A stretch of 32,003 nucleotides of DNA from Nitrospirota bacterium (GTDB taxonomy: Bacteria > Nitrospirota > Nitrospiria > JACQBZ01), in NCBI GenBank assembly GCA_016194285.1, contig JACQBZ010000084.1, forward strand, positions 1-32,003. Reading direction: 5' to 3'. The notes under the pieces were generated by a model. That model made no database searches, was not told the origin of the DNA, and saw nothing but the letters and a program-made list of their open reading frames with translations. Positions 17,414 to 22,954 of the stretch are shown in pieces (position 1 is the first letter of the stretch; each line of letters opens with the position of its first letter). The translations under genes were made by a program, and so were the position numbers.

Positions 17414-18436
17414 TTATCGTTGAGGCCCGTGTGTCGGCTGAGCGGATTCTTGCGTCTGTTTGGACGCGGCGGGAGCCGTTTCTTCGAAGGGGAACTCCAG
17501 ACGATTGTCTCGGAGAGGTACGCGGGACGAGATGCGCACTTCGATCTTCCCGTTCTTCAAGTCTTGAACGCTTTCCAGCTTGAGCGGTTTCGCTTCATGA
17601 AGGATTGTTGCATTTTCACGATCTTCCGGCCGGAGCAAAGACCGCAGATCGATTTCCATCCGATGAATGACAGGCTGAGTCAGACCGCTCGATAGGTCAA
17701 CGACCACCACGTAATCCTCATCCCCGATCTGATCGCCGAACGCAATCTTCCGGTCGTGATCAAACCAAAAAAAACCGTTCGGAATAATCGTATGCCGTTT
17801 GTTTTCTTCCGGGACCCAGACCCGATAGTGCTTCTTGCCGGCATTGCTTTCCGGATAGATGGGATGTCCGACCTCGGTCAACCATCCAATGGGATCATTT
17901 CGGTATGCGTCTTCACCCCGCATACGATTTCCAGCCGCTGAATCGGCCAGGTCATAAACCAGGACCAGATCACTCATCACGGGCGGCTCGGCCGTCTGCG
18001 GCGGGTAAAATTTTCGATAACTCAGAAACCGACCCGTTGGAGACTGCGTGTTTCCAAAACCGATAAAGGAATCGGCCTCTTCCCGGTTTTTCAGATCAAT
18101 CAAGGTGGTCACGGGTGAGTGAAGGTTGGCTTCCTCGCCCATGACAATCAGCTTTCCCTGAAAGATGGAAAGATTGAAAACCTTAGCCGTAACATTGTCC
18201 AAATAAACGGGATACTGGCGGTTGTTGATTATGTCGGTGACCGAGAAAGTAAACTTAACCCTGCCGCCCGTTTTTGGATCAAACCAAGGCTCCCCCGCAC
18301 CCGTTAAAATCGCTCGGTACTCTCCATCTTCGGCCGTGATTGACTTTTGAGTGTTGTCCTCCGCATAACTGTGGATCGTTGGATGAAATGACAAAACCGC
18401 CAACAACCCGAATAAAATTTGTGAAATAAAGGACAT
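17414..18436 (-). CDS. Secreted hypothetical protein
   Basis: A 340-residue exported protein with a signal peptide of about 25 residues. The mature part alternates beta segments and acidic turns (FSVTDIINNRQYPVYLDNV, KIAFGDQIGDEDYVVVVDL), suggesting a beta-propeller or sandwich of the periplasm; the tail is Gln/Ala/Pro-rich and disordered. I recognise no family. ATG 18434-18436 gives the clean signal peptide; a GTG 12 codons earlier is less likely. The gene begins 46 nt after the SDR stop and may be co-transcribed. Confidence 0.75.
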   Translation of the reverse strand: MSFISQILFGLLAVLSFHPTIHSYAEDNTQKSITAEDGEYRAILTGAGEPWFDPKTGGRVKFTFSVTDIINNRQYPVYLDNVTAKVFNLSIFQGKLIVMGEEANLHSPVTTLIDLKNREEADSFIGFGNTQSPTGRFLSYRKFYPPQTAEPPVMSDLVLVYDLADSAAGNRMRGEDAYRNDPIGWLTEVGHPIYPESNAGKKHYRVWVPEENKRHTIIPNGFFWFDHDRKIAFGDQIGDEDYVVVVDLSSGLTQPVIHRMEIDLRSLLRPEDRENATILHEAKPLKLESVQDLKNGKIEVRISSRVPLRDNRLEFPFEETAPAASKQTQESAQPTHGPQR

Positions 18437-18482
18437 TGTTTCACCCAAAAGCCCGTCCCAGGCAATGATCACACGGGATCCC

Positions 18483-19965: not shown

Positions 19966-20535
19966 TTACGTCGGCAGGCTTTTGGGGAAAAAACCTTCAA
20001 AAAACTTCCGTTCCGTATCGGTAAGCTGGACCTTGGATGAGGAATCTTGGAAAACCGGAGAAGCGGAGGCTGTCGGCGAGGTCATTTTCCGACCGGAAAT
20101 CAATACGGGATCCAAGAGAAGCCCCCTTTCATGATTCAGTTCCACGGCGCGGTACTCATAGAGATCGATATCAAATGCGATGAAGGCGATGGTCTCCTGC
20201 AGGGTCGTCGAAAAAGAGGGAGCAATCAGGGTCGCACGGGGCGACGGCGAGAATTCCACTCCTTGCTTATTAAATAACCGGATCAGGAGCGAGTGGTGAC
20301 GAACGATCCAGTTTAATTGTCCAAGAGCCTTCAAAAGAATGGCATCTTCTTCCACGATGGAGGATATCAGCAACACAAAACGTCGTTCCTCATCGACCCC
20401 GAGACAGAGCGGCCCCGATTGGGACCCCAAGTCTTGCTCCAACAGCTCGATCTTGCCGGCCAAATCCTGAAGCTGGGTCAGCACGAGTTTCTGAAGAGCC
20501 GTGTTATCTTGCAGAACAATTCGTTGTAGTTTCAT
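19966..20535 (-). CDS. Unknown protein of the ParA cluster
   Basis: A 189-residue soluble protein. The N-terminal helix (TALQKLVLTQLQDLAGKIELLEQDLG) looks coiled coil. The core alternates strands and helices (GVDEERRFVLLISSI, RATLIAPSFSTT, IAFDIDLYEYRAVEL), vaguely like PD-(D/E)xK-type proteins; I cannot confirm this. The tail is Ser/Pro-rich and may be flexible, ending in RKFFEGFFPKSLP. ATG 20533-20535 follows GGAGGGACA and overlaps the preceding stop in ATGA. It is the last gene of the MerR-ParA operon. Confidence 0.75.
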   Translation of the reverse strand: MKLQRIVLQDNTALQKLVLTQLQDLAGKIELLEQDLGSQSGPLCLGVDEERRFVLLISSIVEEDAILLKALGQLNWIVRHHSLLIRLFNKQGVEFSPSPRATLIAPSFSTTLQETIAFIAFDIDLYEYRAVELNHERGLLLDPVLISGRKMTSPTASASPVFQDSSSKVQLTDTERKFFEGFFPKSLPT

Positions 20536-21479
20536 TGTCCCTCCACGATGTCCGCCGCGCGATGGAGCCAATCAAAAAACGAAGTGGCGGCCGCAGATCG
20601 AATGGGGGCCATCCCCGTCTCCTGTTGAAGATTCCGGGCCGCAATGGAAAAACCCACAGAGGTTTGAGCGGTTTGATCCAAAAGGGCCAGCGGCACCTTC
20701 GCCGCGATAGAGCGCTCAATCAGCGGATCCTCCGGAATCACTCCATACCATTCCAAAGTTTTTCCTAAGAATCGCGTCACCGCGTCGCTTAATTTATTCA
20801 TACAAGCCGCCCATTCCTCTTTGTCCTGCTTTCCGAACCCAAGAAGGCCGATCCGTAGACCGGGCTGAAGACGATACAAATATTTACAGACCCGGTAGGT
20901 CTGAAGAATCGTATCGGCATTAAGATCCACGGATAGAATAACGCCTTGTCCAAGACCCACCCATTTCTCAAAAGAGGGATTTTCTTCGTAAACGGCATGA
21001 ATCAGAATCTGCTCCGCTTTCTCTTCCTCCTGGCGTAAAATTTGGAAGAGAATCTGCTGCTCTTCCAAGGCGAACCCTCGGAGTTCATCCGGACACAATC
21101 GAAAACTCAAAATCTTCATTCCCATCGGACCATCCAGAACGATCTGTTTCTGCGATTGTTCCAACAGGTCGTTTAACGACGGCTGAATCTGGGCGGTTCC
21201 AAAGACTTTATCCAGCGCGGGCAACGGTGCCGTCTCGATCACCAGCACTTGCCGTCCGCACCGCGCCAGCTCGACGGCCAGGTTGGCCGTAAAAAAGGCC
21301 GACGGCAGCCGAGGAACAAGACTGAGGGTCAACCAGACCTTTGTTCTCAAATTCACAGCCTGTCCAAACTTCCGAGCCGGTGGGTTCATCCGATTGAATG
21401 CCGGCGTGGCAGCGGAACCGGAGAGAAAAAGATGCGAGATATCATCAAGACCTTTTCCCAGCCTTTTCTTTGAGTCCAT
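20532..21479 (-). CDS. Degenerate ParA/MinD-like protein with ParB-like N-terminal peptide
   Basis: A 315-residue protein. Residues 40-290 follow the MinD/ParA layout: strand, loop, TANLAVELARCGRQVLVIE, and a C-terminal LGFGKQDKEEW...LEWYGVIPEDPLIERSIAAKVPL like the end of MinD/FlhG. But the P-loop is replaced by SLVPRLPSAFF (no glycines, no lysines) and the D-x-D after the second strand by IETA, so it should not hydrolyse ATP. Residues 4-12, KKRLGKGLD, match the N-terminal peptide of ParB/Spo0J (K-R-L-G-K-G-L) that stimulates ParA ATPase. ATG 21477-21479 follows GAGGACCAACGG. It lies 14 nt after parA and overlaps the next gene, so it may be the ParA partner here. Confidence 0.82.
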   Translation of the reverse strand: MDSKKRLGKGLDDISHLFLSGSAATPAFNRMNPPARKFGQAVNLRTKVWLTLSLVPRLPSAFFTANLAVELARCGRQVLVIETAPLPALDKVFGTAQIQPSLNDLLEQSQKQIVLDGPMGMKILSFRLCPDELRGFALEEQQILFQILRQEEEKAEQILIHAVYEENPSFEKWVGLGQGVILSVDLNADTILQTYRVCKYLYRLQPGLRIGLLGFGKQDKEEWAACMNKLSDAVTRFLGKTLEWYGVIPEDPLIERSIAAKVPLALLDQTAQTSVGFSIAARNLQQETGMAPIRSAAATSFFDWLHRAADIVEGQ

Positions 21480-21493
21480 CCGTTGGTCCTCGA

Positions 21494-22378
21494 TTATAAA
21501 ACGGATCGCTTCGATGGATCCGGAAGAATTTCTTCGATGAGAATCGGACCCAAAAATTTCTGGGCTTCGATCTCCGGAATTCCCGGCACCGCTTTTTCCG
21601 CGATGGCCCCGATGGGAACAGCGGCTTCCTGAAGGACGACCTCTTGGGCCAGGGCCATATAATCCACAGCCCCCTTCGCATGGGGGTCAAACTCGGTGAT
21701 CGGCAAACCGTGGCTGGCCGCCTCCCGAAGTCTTACATTGTTACGAATCATCGTCTTAAAGGTGCGGTCCATAAAGTGCCGTTGCACTTCACCTAATATT
21801 TCCTGAGCAAATCGCATGCGACTGTTCACCATCGTGGCCAGGGCCCACACCGCCACATCATGACCGGTATGTCGGGCTACAACATCGACGATCTCAATCA
21901 ACTTTGCCAGACCATGAAGGGAGAAAAAGCTCATCTCAACCGGAACGATCGCCTCATCGCTGGCACGCAATGCGTTAAAGGTCAACATCCCCAGACTGGG
22001 CGGTGAATCAATGATGATGTAATGATAGGAACGCCGCAAGGCCTCAATCGCAGAGAGCAGCCGCTGCTCTTTCTGTGAGACCGACGCCAGAAGCGGCTCC
22101 GCCGAACTGAGCGTAATATTGGCAGGAGCCAGATCGAGATTGGGACAGATCGATTCATAGATCACATCATCCAGGCAAGTGGCCTGCGTTAAGACCTCCG
22201 TCATTCCTTTGGTAAGATCCTCCGGTTTGAGGTTCAGCCCGAGAGAAGCATGGCCCTGTGGGTCCAGATCAATCAAGAGCACACGCCGGTTCAGCTTCGC
22301 AAGAGAAGCCGACAGGTTAATCGCTGTGGTTGTTTTACCGCATCCCCCTTTTTGATTAATGATTGAAATCGTGCGCAT
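21494..22378 (-). CDS. ParA/Soj-family ATPase
   Basis: A 294-residue ParA-type ATPase with the deviant Walker A KGGCGKTTT (Lys10 signature, Lys15), DLDPQGHAS (A'), and IDSPPSLG (Walker B). NNVRLREAASHGLPI is the Soj-type motif near the C-terminus. Such proteins form ATP dimers on DNA and position chromosomes, plasmids or protein complexes. The last 50 residues (AAVPIGAIAEKAV...) extend beyond typical Soj. No parB is nearby; the degenerate ParA-like protein is the likely partner. ATG 22376-22378 follows AAAGGAGGAGTAT. CCGAT motifs at 21-bp steps lie upstream. Confidence 0.93.
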   Translation of the reverse strand: MRTISIINQKGGCGKTTTAINLSASLAKLNRRVLLIDLDPQGHASLGLNLKPEDLTKGMTEVLTQATCLDDVIYESICPNLDLAPANITLSSAEPLLASVSQKEQRLLSAIEALRRSYHYIIIDSPPSLGMLTFNALRASDEAIVPVEMSFFSLHGLAKLIEIVDVVARHTGHDVAVWALATMVNSRMRFAQEILGEVQRHFMDRTFKTMIRNNVRLREAASHGLPITEFDPHAKGAVDYMALAQEVVLQEAAVPIGAIAEKAVPGIPEIEAQKFLGPILIEEILPDPSKRSVL

Positions 22379-22394
22379 ATACTCCTCCTTTCAA

Positions 22395-22462
22395 CATCGG
22401 TGAATGGACATCCTCCGATGGGAACAGAACCTCAACCGATGATCGAATTCCGATCGCCGATC
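22395..22462. repeat. CCGAT motif cluster between merR-type gene and parA
   Basis: Five CCGAT(G/C) motifs: 22395-22400 (inverted), 22415-22420, 22436-22441, 22450-22455 and 22457-22462. The motifs starting at 22415, 22436 and 22457 are exactly 21 bp apart, two helical turns. Candidate binding sites for the regulator or the partition proteins. Confidence 0.45.
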
Positions 22463-22474
22463 GACAGAAAAGTA

Positions 22475-22954
22475 TTATGACGCCTTATCAATCTGTTGGG
22501 ACGGCCCATGACTTTTGTGGATCTTTCGATACTTGCTAAGCTCTTGAACGCGTTTCTGCCACTTATCTACGGCGCGTTGGATTTCCGCGACCTCGACGAT
22601 CCACTGCTGACCGGAGATCGCCTCAAATACCGTTCCCTCGTAAAATACCAGGACCATGTCACCCGTTGCGACAAGCGTCAGCTCCGCGAGCGGACGCTTG
22701 ACAGTCGGAAGAAGCCTCTGAAGCTCTCCGATGCTTTGACGAATGCGCTGAAGCGATACACCGGCATCCAATAATTTTTTCGCTGTCTTGAAAGAAACAA
22801 GATCTTGGAAGGTATAGCGGGAATGGCCACCCGATGTGCGAGAACTCGGTTTGATTAGACCACTATGATCCCAGTGCTGTATTTGGCGCCGGGTCAAACC
22901 GATGATTTCGCTAACCTCATGAGAGGTGAAGAAGACTTTTTCATTGTTACTCAT
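22475..22954 (-). CDS. MerR-family DNA-binding regulator
   Basis: A 159-residue protein with an N-terminal MerR winged helix (TSHEVSEIIGLTRRQIQHW, then GLIKPSSRTSGGHSRYTFQD) and a helix resembling the MerR dimer helix (LLDAGVSLQRIRQSI). The C-terminal half has a small beta region (LTLVATGDMVLVFYEG) and a basic helix, with no cysteine pair for metals. ATG 22952-22954 lies about 30 nt after the promoter; a five-codon ORF (ATG 22962-22964) overlaps it. The protein probably controls the operon it heads, with parA 96 nt downstream. Confidence 0.88.
   Translation of the reverse strand: MSNNEKVFFTSHEVSEIIGLTRRQIQHWDHSGLIKPSSRTSGGHSRYTFQDLVSFKTAKKLLDAGVSLQRIRQSIGELQRLLPTVKRPLAELTLVATGDMVLVFYEGTVFEAISGQQWIVEVAEIQRAVDKWQKRVQELSKYRKIHKSHGPSQQIDKAS

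Follow-up and report, generated by a model that had tools for sequence, protein, structure and literature searches.

A four-gene cluster of a Nitrospirota bacterium probably encodes a ParA-type module for positioning cargo, with a degenerate MinD-like protein standing in for ParB; its cargo, at least in those relatives with a glycogen-binding module on ParA, would be glycogen/alpha-glucan. All four genes lie on the minus strand of the window (the whole 32,003-nucleotide stretch of DNA that was analyzed, contig 95 of a 2.31 Mb draft genome that is in 102 contigs and 89% complete), as the initial annotation had described. The upstream gene, whose position is conserved, encodes a MerR-family regulator of 159 residues (22475..22954; Pfam MerR_1, E 4.5e-17) and is followed by genes for a ParA ATPase of 294 residues (21494..22378), a 315-residue pseudo-ATPase of the MinD/FlhG fold, here termed pseudo-MinD (20532..21479), and a protein of 189 residues (19966..20535), the last two sharing the ATGA overlap already noted for them, at positions 20532-20535. 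New here, relative to that annotation, are the occurrence of a ParB-like peptide on a DUF4912 protein, the glycogen-binding module (CBM) on the ParA of relatives, and the EndoMS/NucS fold predicted for the 189-residue protein. A gene for a 352-residue protein with no Pfam match (window positions 17414-18472) is a conserved neighbor of the operon, lying beside it in five genomes of the window's family.

The P-loop and D-x-D of pseudo-MinD had been described as lost, and our alignments agree: the SGKGGVGKT of FlhG aligns with SLVPRLPSA in pseudo-MinD (residues 53-61; 21297..21323, minus strand), and the D-x-D is E-T-A. What the protein has in common with FlhG/FleN and MinD is the fold, the P-loop being intact in 0 of the 22 homologues aligned. 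The best PDB match to its AlphaFold2 model (pLDDT 76) was FlhG (4rz2, Foldseek E 2e-15), and the structure search also revealed a resemblance to BcsQ, whereas Pfam by itself failed to identify the protein (CbiA, E 0.06). The MinD likeness proposed earlier is consequently upheld, but the accompanying label of ParA paralog is loose, because pseudo-MinD is nearer to FlhG/MinD than to ParA. Its N-terminus as modeled is basic and disordered, with KKR near the start and nearly all of residues 1-43 at a pLDDT under 50. The dN/dS of pseudo-MinD (0.14-0.17) indicates purifying selection, ruling out a decaying pseudogene, and together with the values for ParA (0.10-0.16) and the 189-residue protein (0.22-0.30) leads us to conclude that none of the three is decaying. 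A short tail motif, SFFxxL, is conserved near the end of pseudo-MinD (window positions 20532-20591) and may be a further docking motif.

The start of pseudo-MinD was originally likened to the ParB/Spo0J peptide that stimulates ParA, and this likeness is borne out by the ParB of the same genome, which begins MQKKALGRGLDALF where pseudo-MinD begins MDSKKRLGKGLDDISHLFLS. The putative ParA-docking peptide comprises residues 4-20 of pseudo-MinD (KKRLGKGLDDISHLFLS; 21420..21470, minus strand) and has the consensus KKLGKGLEDISHLFLS across homologues, which includes the LG[KR]GL core of the ParA-binding motif of ParB. Over 22 loci the peptide is the best-conserved part of the protein, with a mean pairwise identity of 70% versus 27% for the MinD-like body and 10% for the linker; this conservation across phyla argues that the ParB likeness is not due to chance. 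The LGKGL core is kept in most pseudo-MinD homologues, and in one (G029) T replaces the central K/R. Residues L11, R13, L15, L18, and I19 of Myxococcus xanthus ParB are the tested residues of its ParA-binding motif (PMC12462528), and L7, K9, L11, and I14 of the window peptide fall on the first four of these, all of them positions that proved important in M. xanthus. An extension of the peptide, ISHLFLS, is specific to the pseudo-MinD family. A lone near-match to the peptide pattern, EEISHLFLT, in a genome in which no copy of the system was recognized (L087, G044:C331:5000-9500) is probably due to chance.

Omnitrophota carry the same peptide on one more operon protein, which is unrelated to pseudo-MinD and combines DUF4912 with a Glucodextran_B-like end. 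A search of 285 Omnitrophota genomes with a strict peptide pattern returned nine matches, all of them in the module locus (five on pseudo-MinD and four on DUF4912), and the reversed control returned none. The peptide was absent from the DUF4912 copies at three loci (L119, L121, and L122), and a search of the window's own genome for further copies found only that of pseudo-MinD. Two unrelated proteins next to a single ParA have this short tag in common, and the reading that we prefer is that it serves to dock onto, or to activate, that ParA.

The ParA of the window (Pfam AAA_31, E 7e-54) has the intact Walker motifs ascribed to it, namely the deviant Walker A KGGCGKTT (INQKGGCGKTTT) and LLIDLDPQG. 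The ParAs of the module form one group in the phylogenetic tree (support 100/100), apart from both the Soj of the same genome and M. xanthus ParA. By mapping residues onto M. xanthus ParA and comparing 25 loci, we found that the position of L150 is L or I in all 25, that those of L152, L155, and L187 stay hydrophobic, and that the position of the DNA-binding R238 is R or K in every locus, so that, as far as sequence can indicate, much of the ParB-binding pocket is kept and the DNA-binding arginine with it. The residue Y81 of M. xanthus ParA, for which a contact with the arginine of ParB is predicted, is conserved as Y throughout the 15 CBM-bearing ParAs; the window's clade and two further families have T or F instead, so that the details of docking must differ in these. 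Two residues of the R13-binding site are altered in the window's clade (Y81 to T and E117 to L).

The initial annotation reported that no ParB or parS was visible, and we likewise found no parS-like site in the window at up to two mismatches and, by Pfam, no ParB domain among the four operon products. A normal parB does exist elsewhere in the genome, with a ParA of its own: contig C83 (L002:1438-3097) carries a canonical parA-parB pair, the ParA of which has 38% identity to that of the window. Since chromosome partitioning already has its own parA-parB, we rejected plain partitioning as the first choice for the function of the module. Segregation of some other DNA site, with the 189-residue protein as a centromere-binding factor linked to ParA by pseudo-MinD, has in its favor that ParA keeps the position of its DNA-binding arginine and that the 189-residue protein has the predicted fold of a DNA endonuclease. 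Its AlphaFold2 model (pLDDT 78) matched EndoMS (5gkj, E 9.5e-5) and NucS (2vld, E 8.9e-5) in Foldseek, and the profile of its family matched NucS 2vld weakly (E 0.014); Pfam by itself left the window's protein unidentified. The match to the EndoMS/NucS mismatch endonucleases covers their C-terminal NucS domain only, and none of the copies compared keeps the catalytic E-x-K, its place being taken by I-S-S in the window and by N-L-G or D-V-S in relatives; the protein is, as modeled, a PD-(D/E)XK fold of the EndoMS/NucS type devoid of the catalytic E-x-K. A conserved LTxxExxFF near its C-terminus (window positions 19966-20025) is a possible further docking motif. Taken with the P-loop loss in pseudo-MinD, the loss of E-x-K indicates a module of one live ATPase and two dead enzymes. 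Nonetheless, we regard segregation of another DNA site as unlikely, as the genome already has parA-parB, the window has no parS, there is no replication gene among the annotated neighbors, and the glycogen-binding modules on ParA would be left unexplained.

The core of ParA, pseudo-MinD, and third gene was found in Nitrospirota, Zixibacteria, Omnitrophota, and a fourth lineage (G415 and G701), including five relatives from the window's family and five genomes from other families of its class. ParA and pseudo-MinD occurred together in the loci examined, in several phyla; at two Nitrospirota loci (L130 in G089 and L085 in G105) both are present and no third gene was recognized beside them. Conservation of the four-gene order, raised as a check on the original proposal, thus holds across phyla for the three-gene core but not for the MerR gene, which was found at nine loci, all in Nitrospirota. 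The flanking genes vary between lineages, and such differing neighborhoods around a conserved core show that the cluster behaves as a module. One genome of the window's family (G004; 1.7 Mb, 96% complete) has neither pseudo-MinD nor glycogen synthase. At five Omnitrophota loci (L118, L120, L122, L124, and L126) the row of genes continues into UppS, CdsA, Dxr, and a PDZ/M50 (RseP-like) protease, a run of envelope and lipid-carrier genes.

The evidence regarding cargo comes from the relatives. A C-terminal AMPK1_CBM module is present on ParA in 15 of the 25 loci (E 1e-11 to 3e-13 in three ParAs tested singly), and the solved structures nearest to it are the glycogen-binding domains of AMPK beta (CBM48 type). 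The equivalents of AMPK W100, W133, and N150, the last of which we take to be a sugar-binding residue, are kept in all 15 ParA-CBMs, as is K126 in the form of K or R. In AMPK the substitutions W100G and K126Q abolish glycogen binding and W133L weakens it (PMC6274970). The ParA-CBMs therefore resemble AMPK beta in their sugar-binding residues, and differ from it in that the host protein is a ParA and not a kinase subunit. Additionally, the Omnitrophota operon runs on into DUF4912 and a GH57 glucan-branching enzyme, and in one Zixibacterium a GH57 branching enzyme directly follows the third gene; no other loci showed a GH57 neighbor. Based on the sequences of these modules and their neighbors, glycogen/alpha-glucan particles are most likely the cargo in the CBM-bearing relatives. 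The window ParA has no AMPK1_CBM and a profile search of its whole genome found none, so the cargo of the window's own system rests on kinship. In the tree, a single event, whether gain or loss, is sufficient to explain the distribution of the module, although its placement is weakly supported (68/59). Separate AMPK1_CBM-type proteins were also observed in the fourth lineage, one of 159 residues (E 5e-16) that lies upstream of the G415 operon for ParA-CBM (L127:4872-5348) and a similar one of 115 residues in G701. Co-occurrence with glycogen synthase was considered as a test of cargo and dropped: the gene is present in 25 of 26 system-bearing genomes versus 343 of 396 Nitrospirota overall, and being so common its presence does not discriminate.

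The CBM on ParA, the GH57 neighbors, and the MerR gene of Nitrospirota would also suit an ATPase switch that senses glycogen or sugar, in which glucan bound to the ParA-CBM alters the ATPase state and thereby controls the branching enzyme or MerR-dependent transcription. We consider such a switch improbable, because the conserved ParB-like peptide, the pocket, and the DNA-binding residues fit nucleoid-based positioning better and MerR was found at Nitrospirota loci only. A role like that of FlhG, BcsQ, or TadZ in placing an envelope machine (type IV pilus or polysaccharide export) appears very unlikely, for while the pseudo-MinD fold is like those of FlhG and BcsQ and a pilin gene lies directly upstream of ParA at Omnitrophota loci, there is no homologous pilin at Nitrospirota or Zixibacteria loci and no pilus machinery was recognized in the operons.

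We therefore favor a cargo-positioning ParA module with pseudo-MinD in the role of ParB. The original suggestion that the dead protein replaces ParB as ATPase activator or cargo adaptor is partly supported: the peptide is conserved, the gene pair co-occurs elsewhere, and the normal parB of the genome has a separate ParA, so that each condition set in advance for refuting the suggestion came out in its favor; the activation and positioning steps, like the cargo, are those that we infer. ParA-ATP dimers would coat the nucleoid, while the body of pseudo-MinD and the dead nuclease-fold protein would hold the cargo or a scaffold. The disordered pseudo-MinD peptide would dock in the pocket of the ParA dimer and trigger ATP hydrolysis, and the cargo would then move along the ParA gradient, with McdAB and ParABS as precedents. 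Where ParA bears a CBM, it may also be bound directly by the glucan; the window's clade would have lost the CBM or never gained it. In its most specific form, ParA-driven placing and partitioning of glycogen/alpha-glucan particles with pseudo-MinD (and, in Omnitrophota, the glucan-linked DUF4912 protein) as ParB-like activators, the proposal is one that we advance tentatively.

The module is like chromosomal ParABS (Soj/Spo0J) in the deviant Walker A of its ParA, the LG[KR]GL core of the peptide, and much of the pocket (PMC12462528), and unlike it in having no ParB or parS and in carrying the peptide, extended into ISHLFLS, on a MinD-fold pseudo-ATPase. With McdAB, PpfA-TlpT, and PomXYZ it shares the pairing of a ParA/MinD ATPase with a partner that has a positively charged, disordered N-terminus (PMC10241942). 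It differs from those systems in that the partner has a MinD fold of its own and is dead, in that the ParA of relatives is fused to a glycogen-binding module, and in that it includes a third protein, a dead nuclease fold.

Known ParA systems serve DNA, carboxysomes, chemoreceptors, flagella, and division sites, and we found no report of one that serves glycogen. Our search of the open-access literature found no publication linking ParA with CBM48, DUF4912, or glycogen placement, an absence that is not proof. In Escherichia coli the inheritance of glycogen is uneven and favors the old pole (PMC12706056). If our reading is correct, the module would, to our knowledge, be the first system that actively positions a carbohydrate store; it would extend the list of ParA cargoes and make it possible to test directly how a storage polymer is shared out by bacteria. 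It would also mean that the trigger peptide of ParA is reusable on unrelated proteins. Even if the cargo is set aside, pseudo-MinD would provide an orphan clade of ParA with a defined partner.
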